Source: Candidatus Zixiibacteriota bacterium (lineage in GTDB: Bacteria > Zixibacteria > MSB-5A5 > GN15 > FEB-12). Taken from it: a DNA stretch of 53,730 bases. The DNA is taken from contig JAOUBJ010000014.1 of NCBI GenBank assembly GCA_029860345.1, positions 1 through 53,730 of the forward strand, in the 5' to 3' direction. A program made the translations under genes and the position numbers. Positions 16,490 to 29,501 of this stretch are shown piece after piece. Each line of letters begins with the position of its first letter. The first letter of the stretch is position 1. Under the pieces are notes generated by a model. The model searched no databases, was not told the origin of the DNA, and saw only the letters and a program-made list of their open reading frames with translations.

Positions 16490-16788
16490 ATGAATGGCCC
16501 CCTTGCGCTTCGCGCGCCCCGACCTCAGGCTGAGCGAAGTCTCGGGGCGAGACCATCTCGTCCTTGTCACCCCGAGCGGAGTCGAGGGGCGCGGCAATCT
16601 CTCCCCTCTGTCATGCCGGACTTGATCCGGCATCCATCTTCTCTTGTAGGGTGGGTCCGCCTTCGCCGAAGGTCCGCCGTAGGCGGGAACCCGCCGAAGT
16701 CGGCAGGGTTGCCTGGCGTTGTGGTGGCCGAGTCTTCAGACTCGGCTATAAAAGAAATATACTGAAGTCTCACCCAAAAAGACATCTG
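16490..16788. repeat. Intergenic cluster of dispersed hairpin repeats
   Basis: No gene is visible. The stretch is a mosaic of short inverted repeats: a GC-rich CCCCGA/TCGGGG pair near 16516-16553, one copy of a 28-bp hairpin at 16608-16635, a GGGTGGGTCCGCC-type segment near 16650-16700, and a 9-bp stem GCCGAGTCT/AGACTCGGC at 16727-16746. Related pieces recur in other gaps of the window. Confidence 0.7.
16608..16635 (-). repeat. 28-bp hairpin repeat, left copy (inverted)
   Basis: Its reverse complement is identical over 28 bases to the copy at 17770-17797. The core is GCCGGATCAAGTCCGGC, itself a hairpin. The two copies face each other across the small membrane ORF and the PD-(D/E)XK-like gene. 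Confidence 0.85.
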
Positions 16789-17729: not shown

Positions 17730-18133
17730 CAATATAGGCCGTTGCGTCTACCAAGACAATGACTAAGCTGGATGCCGGATCAAGTCCGGCATGACAGGCG
17801 TGGATGTTGTAGCCCGTCCCAAACAGGGTTTGAGACGGCCACCCGGACGAACCTCATGCCTCGACTCCGCTCGGCATGACAGTGATAAATCACTCTTTTT
17901 TTCGCTCCGCACGTCTCACCTGCACACACAAATTGTTAACACTTACAAGTGGTGGTGGGCGACACCGCCCGACACCCGAAAGCTGTCAGGCGAGGTCGCC
18001 TGACAGCACCTGAAACGGCGGCGGGTTCACGCCGCGGCGCGCAGGCGAAGACCGACCCGCCCTACAAGATAGAACCCACTTATGGGTGGCGTATGTTGTT
18101 GACTTGGCAGGAAAATGCGTCTACCTTCTGCCC
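17730..18133. repeat. Intergenic dispersed-repeat region
   Basis: Apart from the 28-bp hairpin at 17770-17797, this gap holds an imperfect inverted region near 17815-17845 (CCGTCCCAAAC / GTTTGAGACGG), a hairpin CTGTCAGGCGA/TCGCCTGACAG at about 17978-18005, and a GC-rich segment ending GACCCGCCCTACAAG that resembles other gaps. I see no gene. Confidence 0.65.
17770..17797 (+). repeat. 28-bp hairpin repeat, right copy
   Basis: An exact inverted copy of 16608-16635. A close variant with an altered loop lies at 29299-29327. Confidence 0.85.
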
Positions 18134-18799
18134 ATGATTAATGCTTCACCGTTCATTATGCGTAAAGCGGTAGCCGAGTTCGGCACCCGCCTCTACGAAC
18201 AGCAAATGATCGCCGGGACCGACGGCAATCTATCAGTACGGCTCGGTGATGACCGAGTATTAGTAACGCCATCCGGTCTGCCCAAGGGACGACTGGCGCC
18301 CGAAGACATGGTGATCGTAGACATGAACGGCAAACACCTGCAAGGCAGCCATAAAGCATCGGCGGAACTGGCTATGCACCTGTTGGTGTATCAACGTCGC
18401 AGCGAAGTCAACGCCGTCATCCACGCCCATCCCCCCCACGCGACAGCTTTTGCCGTGGCCGGGATCGGGCTTGAGTCCGATGTGCTGCCGGAAGTAGTGG
18501 TCTCGGTCGGTAAGATTCCGTTGACCGACTACGCCGGACCGGGGACCGATGAGGTTCCCAAATCGATTGAGCCGCACGTCGACACCTGTAACGCTTTTCT
18601 GCTGCGCAATCATGGTCTGTTGACGGTCGGCCGGTCGTTGGATGAAGCGTATAATCGGCATGAAGTTGTTGAGCATTATGCCCGGATTGTCCTGCTGGCG
18701 CGGCATCTTGGAAACATCGACGCTATTCCCGGCGAGGATTTCAGGAGGCTCGAGCGAATGCGTGAGAATCTGGATAAAACCTGGGACCCCAAAGTCTAA
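18134..18799 (+). CDS. Class II aldolase / adducin-family protein (fuculose-phosphate aldolase-like)
   Basis: A 221-residue metal-dependent aldolase of the L-fuculose/rhamnulose-phosphate or ribulose-phosphate epimerase type, which cleaves or rearranges phosphorylated sugars. Motifs seen: GNLSVR and TPSG (phosphate binding), HAHPPHATA (zinc ligands), and RNHGLLTVG (third zinc His). The substrate cannot be told from sequence. The frame opens at GTG 18086, but family proteins begin near the MINASPF segment, so I chose ATG 18134. No clear ribosome-binding site supports either start. The next gene begins 12 bp after the stop, so the aldolase probably heads an operon through panB. Confidence 0.85.
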   Translation: MINASPFIMRKAVAEFGTRLYEQQMIAGTDGNLSVRLGDDRVLVTPSGLPKGRLAPEDMVIVDMNGKHLQGSHKASAELAMHLLVYQRRSEVNAVIHAHPPHATAFAVAGIGLESDVLPEVVVSVGKIPLTDYAGPGTDEVPKSIEPHVDTCNAFLLRNHGLLTVGRSLDEAYNRHEVVEHYARIVLLARHLGNIDAIPGEDFRRLERMRENLDKTWDPKV

Positions 18800-18811: not shown

Positions 18812-19990
18812 GTGCCTGTAAAAAAGATCATCGTAGAAAAGGCTAACCGGTTGTATCAGTTGCCGCCGGACCTGCTGTCGTTTGCCCAACCGCAGAAGCG
18901 GTTGAAACTGCTCCAAAAGACCGAGATTCTGGACCTGACTTCGTTCCGCTGGCCGGTGGAACCATCGGATAGCCCGCCAGTCGACAATTATCTCGAACCG
19001 GCCGGTAAAGCTGACATGCAAACGCTGAAAGAATCGCTGGCCGAATGGTATCGGTCGGTGCATGGCGCCAAACTCAACCCCAACAAACATGTCTTTATCG
19101 GCAGTTCCATCTCGGCCAACCTGCTGGGCCTGGGCATGGCTTTTATCGATCACGGCGATATCACCTTTGTGCCCGGGTTGGGTCTCCCCCTGTATCGCCG
19201 AGTGGTTGGCGCCTGTGGCGGCGAAGCGGTGGCTTATGCCGTGTTGTCGCAAGATGGCTGGAAGCCGAACTTTGAACGAGTGGGTACCAGATTGGGACGA
19301 GTGGCGCGCGTCCTGTTCGTTAACACCCCGCACAATCCGACCGGTGCTGAACTGAGCGAGAAGGAAATGACCGAGCTGGTGTGGCTGGCGATCAAAGAGA
19401 ATGTCATGATAGTCAACGATGCCGCCTACCAGACTTTCGCCGAGCGGACATCTACCAGCTTGATGAGTGTGATCGGCGGCAAGAAGGTCGGCGTGGAGGT
19501 AGGTTCGTTCTCCTATCACTTCGGACTGCCCAGTCTGCCGCTGGCTTTTGTGGTCGGCCATCGCGATGTAGTCAGTGGACTGAAACTGTCCAGCCGACTG
19601 ACCCGTCCGTTTTTGTTCACTGCCCACGTCCGGGCCGCGATGGAGGCAATGCGCCAATACCCCAACCCACCTTTGCAAGCCGCGCGAAAGAAGATATCAC
19701 AAACCGCCGGCCAGGTGGGCAGCTTCCTGGACACGCTCAACCTTGAGAAAACCGGCTACGATACGGTCCCATTTGTCTGGGCAAGGTTGCCCCGGCGAAG
19801 TCCTTCGACACGCGCCGCCACGCGACTGCTCAAGCGCAGCCGCATCCTGGTGGCGCCGGGTTCCGCTTTTGGCGAACTCGGCGAAGGATACCTCAGATTG
19901 TCGCTGACACCGGATGCTACAACCTATCGGGAGGCAACCGATCGGTTGCGAAAGCGCCGGTTGGCACAACAGAAAGATGCAGCCGAATGA
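18812..19990 (+). CDS. Aminotransferase class I/II homologue lacking the PLP lysine
   Basis: A 392-residue fold-type I PLP-family protein. Much of the usual framework is kept: the NTPHNPTG motif (residues 171-178), Asp203 and Tyr206 in VNDAAY, and a C-terminal YLRLSL that should carry the carboxylate-binding Arg. At the position of the catalytic SxSK lysine, however, the protein reads SFSYHFGLP, with Tyr235 in place of Lys. The phosphate-binding Arg a few residues later is also gone (SLPLAF). The DNA is unambiguous here (TCC TAT CAC). The protein may be a non-catalytic regulator or binding protein, or use different chemistry. GTG 18812 starts 12 bp after the aldolase stop, and the gene ends in an ATGA overlap with folB. 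Confidence 0.85.
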   Translation: MPVKKIIVEKANRLYQLPPDLLSFAQPQKRLKLLQKTEILDLTSFRWPVEPSDSPPVDNYLEPAGKADMQTLKESLAEWYRSVHGAKLNPNKHVFIGSSISANLLGLGMAFIDHGDITFVPGLGLPLYRRVVGACGGEAVAYAVLSQDGWKPNFERVGTRLGRVARVLFVNTPHNPTGAELSEKEMTELVWLAIKENVMIVNDAAYQTFAERTSTSLMSVIGGKKVGVEVGSFSYHFGLPSLPLAFVVGHRDVVSGLKLSSRLTRPFLFTAHVRAAMEAMRQYPNPPLQAARKKISQTAGQVGSFLDTLNLEKTGYDTVPFVWARLPRRSPSTRAATRLLKRSRILVAPGSAFGELGEGYLRLSLTPDATTYREATDRLRKRRLAQQKDAAE

Positions 19991-20379
19991 AAGACATCAT
20001 CCGCATGACCGGCATGTCGTTTTATGGCTACCACGGTGTCAGCGCTGCCGAGCGTGAGACCGGACGGATGTTCGAGGTTGATTGCGAACTCGAAGTCGAC
20101 CTGGCCGAGGCGGGTCAGTCCGACCAACTCATCGACACTATCGATTACGCCAAAGTCTACGACACCGTCCGCGAAACGGTCGAGGGGACGGCCTTCTCGT
20201 TGCTGGAGGGTCTGACCGGTAAACTGGCCACGCGAATTCTAAATGACTTCGGGGCCTATCGGGTTACTTTGCGCGTTCGCAAGCTTGATCCCCCTCTGGG
20301 CGGACACGTAAAACATATTGAAGTTGAACTGACGCGCCACCAGGCGGACACTCAGAAACTCATCAACAACGAATCATAG
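19987..20379 (+). CDS. folB: Dihydroneopterin aldolase FolB
   Basis: A 130-residue enzyme of tetrahydrofolate synthesis that converts 7,8-dihydroneopterin to 6-hydroxymethyl-dihydropterin and glycolaldehyde. Family features are FYGYHGVSAAERETG near the N-terminus, IDTIDYAKVY with the active-site Tyr, LLEGLTGKLA, and RVRKLDPPLGG with the catalytic Lys. The start overlaps the stop of the preceding gene (ATGA), which implies translational coupling. folK follows nine bases later, the standard partner acting on its product. Confidence 0.93.
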   Translation: MKDIIRMTGMSFYGYHGVSAAERETGRMFEVDCELEVDLAEAGQSDQLIDTIDYAKVYDTVRETVEGTAFSLLEGLTGKLATRILNDFGAYRVTLRVRKLDPPLGGHVKHIEVELTRHQADTQKLINNES

Positions 20380-20388
20380 AGGCATACG

Positions 20389-20898
20389 ATGTCTGAAACT
20401 GTTTTTATTCTCGCCGGCTCGAACATGGGTGACCGTGAAAAAAACCTGGCCGACGCGCTGGCCAAACTTGAGTTTATCGAAGGTCTCGAAATCGTCGCAA
20501 CATCTGCCATCTACCTGTCGGAGGCCGATGGTATGGACTCTGCGGCGCCATCGTTTATGAATCAGGCCGTGATGGCCGACTATCGGTTCACTGCGGGTGA
20601 ATTACTTAATGCTCTGGAGTTGATTGAAAAGAAGCTCGGTCGCACCGGCAAAGGTCAGCAACTGCCGCGCACTATCGACCTGGACATACTGTTGTTCGGG
20701 CAACAGGTGATCGAGAGCGAGCGGCTGTCCATACCGCATCGGGAGTTGCTCAATCGACCGTTCGCCATGGCGCCGATTCTGCAGATTGATCCGAAAGTGA
20801 CTCATCCGGTAACGAAAAGGCCGGTCTCGGATTTTCTCAGTGACGAAGATCGAAACAAAGTAATGTTGTACAAGGACCATGTCGCAAGACAACCTTAG
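20389..20898 (+). CDS. folK: 2-amino-4-hydroxy-6-hydroxymethyldihydropteridine pyrophosphokinase FolK
   Basis: A 169-residue HPPK, which transfers pyrophosphate from ATP to the pterin made by FolB. Signature features: ILAGSNMGDREKNL at the N-terminus, FMNQAV, LLNALELIEKKLGRTG, and RTIDLDILLFG with the Mg-binding Asp pair, then IPHRELLNRPFAMAPIL. The last 20 bases overlap the next gene in another frame. Confidence 0.95.
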   Translation: MSETVFILAGSNMGDREKNLADALAKLEFIEGLEIVATSAIYLSEADGMDSAAPSFMNQAVMADYRFTAGELLNALELIEKKLGRTGKGQQLPRTIDLDILLFGQQVIESERLSIPHRELLNRPFAMAPILQIDPKVTHPVTKRPVSDFLSDEDRNKVMLYKDHVARQP

Positions 20899-21538
20899 AC
20901 CCAATTACATAGCCGTTGAAGGCGTCATCGGCGTCGGGAAAACATCGTTCGCCAAGATGCTGGCCGAGCGACTCGAAGCCGAGTTGCTGGCTGAAGAAGT
21001 CTTCGAGAACCCGTTTCTGGTGGATTTCTACAAGCATAAAAAGCGGCATGCCTTCAGTTGCCAGTTGTTCTTCCTGCTGTCGCGGTTTCAACAACAGCAG
21101 CAACTGATGGTGCGGGATCTGTTCGCTCAACGGATCGTCGCCGACTATCTTTTTGCCAAAGATGCTATCTTTGCGTCGGTGAACCTGGCCGAGCGCGAAC
21201 TGGCTTTGTATGACAAGATCGCACCGATTCTATCGAAAGACGTTCCCAGACCGGACCTGGCGATCTACCTGCAAGCATCGACACCGACACTGCTGCAACG
21301 GATTCGCAAAAGGAACTACACCTTCGAAAAGACAGTCGGTCCCGACTATGTCGAGATGCTAAACAAAGCATACGACTATTACTTTTTCAACTACACCGAA
21401 ACGCCGCTATTGGTGGTCAAAACAGACGAGATCGACTTTGTGGAGAACCCGGAACACTTCGATGACCTGATCGATCAAATCGAAAAACCGATGAGTGGCA
21501 AAAAATACTACGTGCCGGCCGGCAACGTCGTATTATAA
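20879..21538 (+). CDS. Deoxynucleoside kinase (dGK/dCK family)
   Basis: A 219-residue salvage kinase that phosphorylates deoxyribonucleosides with ATP. The P-loop GVIGVGKTS sits near residue 15, followed by LLAEEVFENPFL (the Glu that contacts the sugar), a Gln/Phe-rich helix (FFLLSRFQQQQQ), the lid region LQRIRKRNYTFEK with its Arg pair, and a C-terminal helix. Exact base preference is not readable. It overlaps folK by 20 bp and is followed by panB nine bases later, an arrangement that points to one operon. Confidence 0.88.
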   Translation: MSQDNLRPNYIAVEGVIGVGKTSFAKMLAERLEAELLAEEVFENPFLVDFYKHKKRHAFSCQLFFLLSRFQQQQQLMVRDLFAQRIVADYLFAKDAIFASVNLAERELALYDKIAPILSKDVPRPDLAIYLQASTPTLLQRIRKRNYTFEKTVGPDYVEMLNKAYDYYFFNYTETPLLVVKTDEIDFVENPEHFDDLIDQIEKPMSGKKYYVPAGNVVL

Positions 21539-21547
21539 TGAGACATT

Positions 21548-22375
21548 ATGGGATACCTTGACGGAAAGAAACGGATGACGATCGGTCGCATTCTGAAAAA
21601 GAAAGCATCCGGTGAGAAGATTGCGGTGCTGACCGCGTATGACCACTACACGGCACACCTCTTGGACGAAGCGGGGATCGACATGACCCTGGTCGGCGAC
21701 TCGGCGGCCAACGTTATTCATGGCTACGACTCGACGCTGCCGATCACGATGGACGTGATGGTGGCTCACTGTGCCGCTGTAGCGCGCGGTACCGAGAATG
21801 CACTGGTCATCGCCGACATGCCGTTCATGTCGTTTCAACCGTCGACTGAGACGGCTATTCTCAATGCCGGACGCTTTCTCAAAGAAGGCGGTGCGCACGC
21901 AGTCAAACTCGAAGGTGGTCTGGAAATCGTACCGACGGTCAAGCGGTTGGTCGAGATAGGTATCCCTGTCATGGGGCATATCGGTTTGACGCCGCAGTCG
22001 ATCAATCGGTTCGGCGGTCCTCGAGTACAGGGCCGGAAGAAAAAGTCACAGACCTATCTCAAAGAGTCGGCGCTGGCTCTGGAAGAAGCGGGCGCCTTCT
22101 CGATGGTGCTCGAATTAGTCGAGAACGACACAGCGCGCGAGATCACTGAGAGCCTGAAGCGCGCGGCGACTATCGGTATCGGCGCCGGTGTCGCTTGCGA
22201 CGGTCAAGTACTCGTGATCAATGATATTCTGGGGCTGGGTGACACTGAGTTCAAACCGAAGTTCGTGCGCCGCTACGCCGACCTCTCCCCTGTCATTTCC
22301 GATGCTGTCAAACGCTTCATCGCCGACGTCAAGTCCGGCGAGTATCCCTCAGATGATGAGTCGTATGGGGGGTAG
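21548..22375 (+). CDS. panB: 3-methyl-2-oxobutanoate hydroxymethyltransferase PanB
   Basis: A 275-residue ketopantoate hydroxymethyltransferase. It adds a hydroxymethyl group from 5,10-methylene-tetrahydrofolate to 2-ketoisovalerate in pantothenate synthesis, which links it functionally to the folate genes just upstream. Motifs: AVLTAYDHYTAHLLDEAG, VGDSAANVIHGY with metal-binding Asp, VIADMPFMSF, AVKLEGG, VMGHIGLTPQS, and the EGAFSMVLE-like segment (EAGAFSMVLE). Near the C-terminus LGLGDTEFKPKFVRRYADL also fits. The usual partner panC is not in the window. Confidence 0.95.
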   Translation: MGYLDGKKRMTIGRILKKKASGEKIAVLTAYDHYTAHLLDEAGIDMTLVGDSAANVIHGYDSTLPITMDVMVAHCAAVARGTENALVIADMPFMSFQPSTETAILNAGRFLKEGGAHAVKLEGGLEIVPTVKRLVEIGIPVMGHIGLTPQSINRFGGPRVQGRKKKSQTYLKESALALEEAGAFSMVLELVENDTAREITESLKRAATIGIGAGVACDGQVLVINDILGLGDTEFKPKFVRRYADLSPVISDAVKRFIADVKSGEYPSDDESYGG

Positions 22376-22399: not shown

Positions 22400-23731
22400 G
22401 TGCTGAACAAAACAGACCCGGGAAAACTAAACGCCAGCCGAGTGTACTTTACCGAGTTTGATCGAGTCACTTATTCCCAGGTGGCTTGGACGCCTTCTGA
22501 CGTGGAGGGGATCAAACTCGCTCTGATCAGGAAGTTGAAGCTGTTGGCTTTGACAAAAGGTCATGTTGTTATCGCAGCTTCTCACCTGTTGGAATCAGAG
22601 CTTGCTCGTGAGCTCCTGCTACCCCACCCAGAGTTATTCTCTGAACGCATAGTTGTGCCTGCCCTCCGTGAGGAATTTCCAACGTGCGTCGACTTTATGG
22701 AGAGCAAACAACACGCTCCGTCACAAGGGGAGGCCGAGTTATATTGCGGTGCCGATCAGAGCGAGATGGCCCAATTGATTGATGACAGCGCCCGACCAGT
22801 GAAATGGAACACGGCCGAAACAAGTACTTGGTTCAAATCTAGACTGCTTTCCGATCTTCGGAACCCCAACAGCCTACCGGGCCTGATGCTTTCCGAAAAT
22901 GGCCTTTCGGTTCCCGAATCCATGTGCTCTGAACTTGAGAACACCGCTTCGCTCAGCCGCGGAGCGGTCTACAGCGCCTCACAACAGTGTGGCGAATTGA
23001 CATTCAGAGAAATCATCACTTCCTATGCGGACTTTCTGTATTATCTATCCGGTGCGCGAGCTGTTGACTCAGAGGGAATCCTCCCGCAAGAGAACATCGT
23101 TGACTTCCGTTTATCTGACCTCAGCGGAGCCAAAACCAACCTCTCGGAGCATGAGGTGTTCTTTAAGATTTTCGTCGATCTAGTTAAGACCAGTACATCT
23201 ACTTATTTTCCGACTGATCTCTTGGACGCAATTACGGTTGAAGATTCAATCGAGTTACACCGGATTGCCGTTGAAGCTTCGTTTGTCGAAAAGTACAACG
23301 ATATTCAGACTAAAACCAAAGCCGGTCTCATGATGACAGATCCAGAACGGCTGGTGTTTCTGATGCACGAACTGGAGGAGCTCGAACGCGAATTGTGGAG
23401 TGAATACAGAAACGCCATCTATAGTGAGCTTCCTCTGCAGCATCGCAAACTTATGAAGCGTCGCGCTGCTCAGTTTATTCACTCGGTTGCATCTGTCATC
23501 ATCACACCGTACGGTCTTGTAATGGGAACCAAGGACATTCTGGTCTCAGGGCTGCGACTGATTAGCCTGGACGGCATCGCTTCACGTATCGAGTCAAGAA
23601 TCGAGAAGAGTCTCCGTGGCCTTGAGTCGGCAGTGGCGAAGACGACAGCCGGCCAGAAGCCGATTCTATTGCAATATATCGACAAACTGAAATCCCGATA
23701 CGCGAGTAAGATGCTTGGACCTCAAGATTAG
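22400..23731 (+). CDS. Orphan hypothetical protein (443 aa)
   Basis: I do not recognise this protein. It starts at GTG 22400 with AGGTGA five bases upstream. There is no signal peptide. The N-terminal third includes a mixed alpha/beta segment (VVIAASHLLESELARELL ... ERIVVPALREEFPTCVDFMES), the middle is polar, and the C-terminal third is helical and charged (LMHELEELERELWSEYR). A weakly hydrophobic stretch follows at about residues 365-390 (FIHSVASVIITPYGLVMG). Codon and base use look more AT-rich than in panB, and hairpin repeats lie downstream, so it sits at the left edge of an accessory stretch. It may be part of a defence or phage-related island, but nothing in the sequence proves that. 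Confidence 0.75.
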   Translation: MLNKTDPGKLNASRVYFTEFDRVTYSQVAWTPSDVEGIKLALIRKLKLLALTKGHVVIAASHLLESELARELLLPHPELFSERIVVPALREEFPTCVDFMESKQHAPSQGEAELYCGADQSEMAQLIDDSARPVKWNTAETSTWFKSRLLSDLRNPNSLPGLMLSENGLSVPESMCSELENTASLSRGAVYSASQQCGELTFREIITSYADFLYYLSGARAVDSEGILPQENIVDFRLSDLSGAKTNLSEHEVFFKIFVDLVKTSTSTYFPTDLLDAITVEDSIELHRIAVEASFVEKYNDIQTKTKAGLMMTDPERLVFLMHELEELERELWSEYRNAIYSELPLQHRKLMKRRAAQFIHSVASVIITPYGLVMGTKDILVSGLRLISLDGIASRIESRIEKSLRGLESAVAKTTAGQKPILLQYIDKLKSRYASKMLGPQD

Positions 23732-29254: not shown

Positions 29255-29284
29255 GGCAGGTCTCTAACAGAAGAGAGACCTGCC
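29255..29284. repeat. Copy of the CAGGTCTC/GAGACCTG hairpin family
   Basis: GGCAGGTCTCT pairs with AGAGACCTGCC. It is followed by CTACAA, as in the 24061 copy. Confidence 0.75.
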
Positions 29285-29298
29285 CTACAAAAGCAGAT

Positions 29299-29327
29299 GG
29301 ATGCCGGTTCGAAGTCCGGCATGACAG
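29299..29327 (+). repeat. Variant of the 28-bp hairpin repeat
   Basis: Begins GGATGCCGG and ends CCGGCATGACAG, as at 17770. The centre is TTCGAAGT instead of ATCAAGT. Confidence 0.75.
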
Positions 29328-29501
29328 AAGTTGGGCGTAAAGCAGGGGGAAGCGAATTGTCAGGTTACCTGTGTCGGGCGGGTCGCCCAACACCACCAAA
29401 GACAGCCGGCAGGCCTTTGCCGGCCGCTAACCACATGAAATAACAACAGATAGCAGGTGCTCGGGAACAAATCCAGGCTGCCGACAATTATAGTAAATAA
29501 T

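Follow-up and report, generated by a model that had tools for sequence, protein, structure and literature searches.

A lysine-less aminotransferase homologue kept beside folate genes in Candidatus Zixiibacteriota, a probably non-enzymatic relative of DapL

Among the closest described systems, LCB1/SPTLC1, the non-catalytic subunit of serine palmitoyltransferase, is a homologue of PLP enzymes which is devoid of the PLP lysine and is kept by selection (PMC3794620). In IscS of Archaeoglobus fulgidus and the related archaeal IscS1, the catalytic lysine is replaced by aspartate, the protein serving as a binding or ligand partner and not as an enzyme (PMC7585200). Here, we describe a lysine-less homologue of the class I/II aminotransferases, psAT (pseudo-DapL), which is encoded within a 53,730-nucleotide stretch of Candidatus Zixiibacteriota DNA (GCA_029860345.1, contig JAOUBJ010000014.1, positions 1 to 53,730), hereafter referred to as the window. 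A search of the openly licensed literature found no papers on the psAT family or on a lysine-less DapL. The locus is composed of the following features.

18086..18799, plus strand: class II aldolase/adducin-family protein (PF00596, 177.8 bits; metal site E94, H113, H115 and H176 conserved)
18812..19990, plus strand: psAT, lysine-less class I/II aminotransferase homologue, 392 aa (open ORF; PF00155; AlphaFold2 model; BacF 6l1o match)
19987..19990, plus strand: ATGA in which the psAT stop codon overlaps the folB start codon (translational coupling; 17/40 relatives, most of them from family f1, have an NTGA-type junction)
19987..20379, plus strand: folB, dihydroneopterin aldolase (over the TIGR00525 cut-off; E22, Y54, E74 and K99 conserved)
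20389..20898, plus strand: folK, HPPK (over the TIGR01498 cut-off)
20879..21538, plus strand: deoxynucleoside kinase, dNK (PF01712, 136.9 bits)
21548..22375, plus strand: panB, ketopantoate hydroxymethyltransferase (over the TIGR00222 cut-off)

Fold and active-site residues of psAT

The psAT reading frame starts at GTG and is open throughout, and its product matches Pfam Aminotran_1_2 (PF00155) over the whole fold with 131.9 bits against a cut-off of 19.7. The AlphaFold2 model, which is confident across the fold (mean pLDDT 88.8) with residues 1-15 and 29-33 scoring low, predicts a full class I/II aminotransferase fold. The best solved match to this model is BacF of Bacillus subtilis (PDB 6l1o, Z 43.4; also 6l1l and 6l1n), with 369 residues aligned at 22% identity, and the other near neighbours are likewise class I/II aminotransferases; unlike psAT, BacF carries the SxSK lysine at the equivalent place of the alignment.

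The search for counterparts covered 60 relatives and, subsequently, 132 genomes of the phylum, and the resulting alignment holds 80 psAT counterparts (pseudo rows), which represent 18 of the class's 19 family-level groups, together with 52 lysine-bearing homologues (Lys-type rows). The motifs NTPHNPTG (171-178), VNDAAY (201-206), GSFSYHFGLPSLPLAF (231-246) and YLRLSL (360-365) are present in psAT, and the roles of the following residues are assigned by their correspondence to aspartate aminotransferase (AspAT).

19334..19336, plus strand: codon of Asn175 (AspAT Asn194), retained (N in 75/80 pseudo rows)
19418..19420, plus strand: codon of Asp203 (AspAT Asp222), retained except in family f17 (D in 76/80)
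19514..19516, plus strand: codon of Tyr235, aligned with the lysine that forms the PLP Schiff base (AspAT Lys258; K in 52/52 Lys-type and 0/80 pseudo rows)
19538..19540, plus strand: codon of Pro243, aligned with the phosphate arginine (AspAT Arg266; all 52 Lys-type rows have R; P in 40 and K in 14 of 80 pseudo rows)
19895..19897, plus strand: codon of Arg362 (AspAT Arg386, substrate carboxylate), retained (R in 79/80, the last row being a gap)

Two of the residues expected of a PF00155 enzyme are, therefore, replaced in psAT, the SxSK lysine by Tyr235 and the phosphate arginine by Pro243, as the sequence-only reading had recognized within a fold-type I framework, while the pocket residues equivalent to Asn194, Asp222 and Arg386 are present. 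Arginine is not among the eight commonest residues of the phosphate-arginine column in the pseudo rows. Further losses concern Ser234 of SxSK, which is not conserved in the pseudo family, the PLP-stacking aromatic residue (GYP in working enzymes), which is lost in most pseudo rows and is L125 in the window, and the Tyr70* motif (Y..G, preceding the first helix), which has disappeared together with its glycine; tyrosine occupies the Tyr70* column in 52 of 65 Lys-type rows, and P, L, S, A and others are found there in the pseudo family. The pocket residues Tyr/Phe206, Gly354 and Pro176 are also kept, and new constraint is apparent at Arg129 (70/80), His174 (76/80), Pro320 (74/80) and Asn197 (68/80).

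Lysine loss and selection across the class

Lysine occupies the PLP column in all 52 Lys-type enzymes and in none of the 80 pseudo counterparts, whose genes have the same neighbours. Because none of these aligned counterparts, which derive from independent genomes, has the lysine, its loss is attributable neither to sequencing error nor to chance, and the earlier designation of psAT as a pseudo-enzyme is upheld. Nor does the alignment contain another conserved lysine which might stand in for PLP binding; the lysine-rich columns (4, 5, 10, 73, 87, 92 and 225) all fall away from the catalytic motifs and show only partial conservation, and replacement of the PLP lysine by another lysine was accordingly rejected.

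The earlier emphasis on tyrosine as the replacement applies to the nearer relatives only. The column of position 235 contains Y in 37, F in 16, T in 11, L in 6 and H in 4 of the 80 rows, and a gap is also seen. Tyrosine is found throughout the genus and family (31 loci), and the motif SF[SA]Y.[FL]GLP is well conserved in the family nearest to the window; across the order, the genes at this locus encode Y, F or L there, and the rest of the class possesses F, T, L, H and others, or a shortened loop. In families f12-f14, SxSK is absent and the loop is shortened to an extent that makes the exact PLP column uncertain. Since the residue drifts in this manner, tyrosine as a dedicated catalyst was rejected for the family. 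Some genomes of f6 and f12-f14 encode Lys-type DapL-like paralogues elsewhere (L191-L197) and thus harbor both forms. Beyond Zixiibacteriota and Ca. Eisenbacteria, single genomes of seven other lineages were searched for lysine-less relatives, and the best matches examined were all of the Lys type.

The psAT gene is under purifying selection, with pairwise dN/dS values of 0.05-0.14 (pairs with measurable dS) which are close to those of the operon neighbours and usually slightly higher; selection on the gene had previously been thought probable. Loss of the catalytic residues thus coincides with purifying selection across a clade, as is the case for pseudoenzymes. Nearly all loci examined across the class have an intact psAT, which is also the most diverged gene of the operon (mean distance 1.88), evolving faster than its neighbours. 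It is cleanly missing, with the neighbours present, from g44 (L208 and L209) and from g73 of f16 (L214 and L216), and f8 (L210) possesses folB-folK-panB without psAT. Because these lineages dropped psAT yet kept other genes of the locus, psAT is not an obligate partner of FolB. In genome G129, psAT is split over two frames, by mutation or assembly error. Six genomes without a FolB match (G005, G006, G009, G073, G110 and G125) also produced no psAT match of full-length strength, as would be expected if the whole locus had been lost or had fallen into an assembly gap. Rate covariation was uninformative, the psAT-folB value (0.71) being hardly different from that of the control, htrA (0.68).

Operon context and relation to DapL

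Across the class, the gene order aldolase, psAT, folB, folK, dNK, panB is mostly conserved, with rearrangements in some families. At order level, loci on contigs of sufficient length present, with few exceptions, the arrangement sigma factor (reverse), htrA (reverse), aldolase, psAT, folB, folK, dNK, panB; elsewhere in the class, the segment folB-folK-dNK-panB is retained, with dNK relocated in f15/f16. The coupling to folB which had been proposed earlier holds mainly for f1, in which most genomes have the overlap; overall, the junction is present at 17 of 40 loci. The aldolase/adducin-family gene (18086-18799), which scores below all NCBIfam cut-offs, is the first gene of the operon in most members of the order. 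No aldolase match was obtained beside psAT in f7, f17 and some f10/f13 loci, and a fixed partnership between psAT and the class II aldolase is thereby weakened.

Several additional observations were made at these loci. Downstream of panB, positions 22400-23731 of the window encode a 443-aa protein without a Pfam or NCBIfam match, for which, among the order-level loci searched, only L091 of the same genus has a counterpart (76% identity). Short dispersed repeats, 88-97% identical and apparently intergenic, occur at 16607-16657, 17765-17797 and 29277-29328 of the window, with the chance translations CHAGLDPAS and MPDLIRHP. The G030 bin carries two copies of the locus (L093 and L094), whose psAT proteins are 66% and 54% identical to that of the window, possibly reflecting two organisms in one bin.

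The two NCBIfam families which match psAT best are both LL-diaminopimelate aminotransferases (DapL), and both scores fall far below the respective cut-offs (TIGR03540, 173.9 bits against 593; PRK09276, 175.1 bits against 507). In Ca. Eisenbacteria, an aminotransferase gene is located directly before folB-folK-dNK, in the same position as psAT, and its product has SFSK, GYP, Arg266, Asn, Asp, Tyr and Arg386 all intact. Of these operonic enzymes, two were scored against TIGR03540 and obtained 504 and 517 bits, and the PRK09276 DapL cut-off is exceeded by one of them; a gene position common to psAT and to intact DapL-like genes is thus evident. An intact DapL-like gene within the folB-folK-dNK operon was seen at Eisenbacteria loci L225, L227, L228, L230-L237 and L253, which represents an unexpected link between lysine/peptidoglycan and folate genes.

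A branch supported at 100/100 separates all pseudo rows from the other sequences. Because the tree is unrooted, has long branches and was built with the catalytic columns included, it does not by itself prove a single loss, and it does not join psAT and the Eisenbacteria operonic gene as sisters. From position and family membership, and not from the tree, we infer that the two genes are orthologous, and synteny, which is independent of the tree, together with family likewise suggests that psAT descends from DapL. The simplest reading is that of a pseudo-DapL whose catalytic function disappeared a single time, near the base of the class and before its sampled families diverged, the gene staying in its operon.

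DapF is present in 39 of 41 genomes and no DapD over the cut-off was found in 26 genomes, and a DapL-type aminotransferase is therefore to be expected; no Zixiibacteriota protein reaches the DapL cut-off. A Lys-type aminotransferase gene is located directly before dapF in f1 and f4 genomes (L005, L284 and L285), including the window's own genome (L005, 1342-2547; C9:137620-138642), where dapF is at C9:138923-139720. Its product, which resembles the aminotransferase domain of MocR/PdxR, is a candidate non-orthologous LL-DAP aminotransferase and is likelier than psAT to perform the DAP step. If this enzyme replaced DapL, the operonic copy would have been freed to change role. A hole in the folate pathway was also considered and rejected as an explanation for psAT, since nearly all relatives encode FolP as well as class IV aminotransferases of the PabC/IlvE type, leaving no obvious gap for psAT at these steps.

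Proposed role and comparison with known systems

As the lysine has been lost and yet the class keeps the gene beside folate genes, psAT is probably non-enzymatic. The loss of the lysine without a fixed substitute, together with that of the phosphate arginine and of Tyr70*, argues against both catalysis and the completion of a partner's active site, and the retained pocket residues and new invariant positions favor a ligand- or partner-binding role. We propose the following sequence of events. An ancestral, active DapL would have resided in a folB-folK-dNK(-panB) operon, in which Ca. Eisenbacteria still encode an intact enzyme. The Schiff-base lysine, the phosphate arginine and the tyrosine which reaches the partner subunit would have disappeared from this ancestor near the base of the sampled class, after which PLP transamination and completion of a partner's active site should be impossible. 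The folded protein would have been kept with part of the old pocket (Asn175, Asp203 and Arg362) and, being made together with FolB and FolK, may bind at least one operon product and/or a small carboxylate-bearing metabolite in that pocket, thus stabilizing or tuning the pterin branch of folate synthesis. The most economical role would be that of a partner of the co-translated enzymes, with FolB the first of the proposed partners. Ligand binding and partnership with FolB/FolK are both inferred from the preserved residues and gene arrangement, and to the explanation as a whole, a non-catalytic psAT made with FolB and FolK as the partner- or ligand-binding remnant of an operonic DapL, we assign about an even chance. 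That a DapL of the folate/pantothenate operon was converted, in the class ancestor, into a non-catalytic protein dedicated to folate synthesis, as a metabolite sensor or as a scaffold, is put forward more tentatively; if true, psAT would be an aminotransferase-fold regulator without covalent PLP, a kind of protein for which the literature search gave no description.

In fold-type I enzymes, the active sites are shared between the subunits of a dimer. Conceivably, psAT is a pseudo-subunit which joins a lysine-bearing aminotransferase from another locus and helps to shape the active site of that enzyme, as in the LCB1-LCB2 pair, whose LCB1 member is itself without the PLP lysine (PMC3794620). 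The genome does encode several lysine-bearing aminotransferases, one of which adjoins dapF, but no Lys-type gene neighbours psAT at the window locus, and Tyr70*, the residue which reaches into the active site of the other subunit, is lost from the pseudo family; this arrangement is considered rather unlikely.

Retention of most pyridine-contact residues (N175, D203 and Y/F206) would also suit a PLP carrier, chaperone or vitamin-B6 sensor which binds PLP non-covalently for signalling or delivery. Such binding is disfavoured because the phosphate arginine and, in most rows, the GYP aromatic are lost, Ser234 likewise not being conserved, although N175, D203 and R362 are mostly kept in the aligned sequences; a function of this type appears doubtful. 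About as doubtful is a lysine-independent enzyme employing PMP/PLP or another cofactor without a Schiff base, with residue 235 or another group as the catalyst. The retained Asp203, Asn175 and Arg362 and the conserved motif of the nearest family are compatible with this improbable alternative, but the variation at position 235 (Y, F, T, L, H or a gap) provides no catalytic replacement common to the family, the phosphate arginine and stacking aromatic are gone, and f17 has lost the aspartate as well. A decaying, pseudogene-like remnant without function, to which the absence of psAT from several lineages, its divergence and the broken G129 frame might point, is hardly tenable in view of its intact state at nearly all loci, its low dN/dS and its class-wide invariant residues.

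Annotation pipelines would label psAT a PLP-dependent aminotransferase, and an activity which probably does not stem from it would then enter metabolic models of Zixiibacteriota. The locus also offers a rare natural series, in which one phylum has the intact enzyme at this position, another has some 80 catalytically dead counterparts, and certain lineages have lost the gene; such a series allows a direct test of why a dead enzyme is retained.

In its fold, its N-terminal RL..LPP-type motif, its NPHNPTG-type loop and its pocket aspartate and arginine, psAT resembles DapL (TIGR03540/PRK09276), including the Eisenbacteria copy, with which it additionally shares the position before folB-folK-dNK; it differs from DapL in having lost the Schiff-base lysine, the phosphate arginine, the stacking tyrosine and Tyr70*. 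LCB1, which works with its paralogue LCB2, belongs to another subfamily; psAT, in contrast, has no LCB2-like partner at its locus and does not keep the partner-completing Tyr70*. Archaeal IscS is also distinct, belonging to the cysteine-desulfurase family and contributing a cysteine as ligand of an Fe-S cluster. LCB1 and archaeal IscS already exemplify relatives of PLP enzymes which have no catalytic lysine and are kept as partners, and psAT would add another such case.
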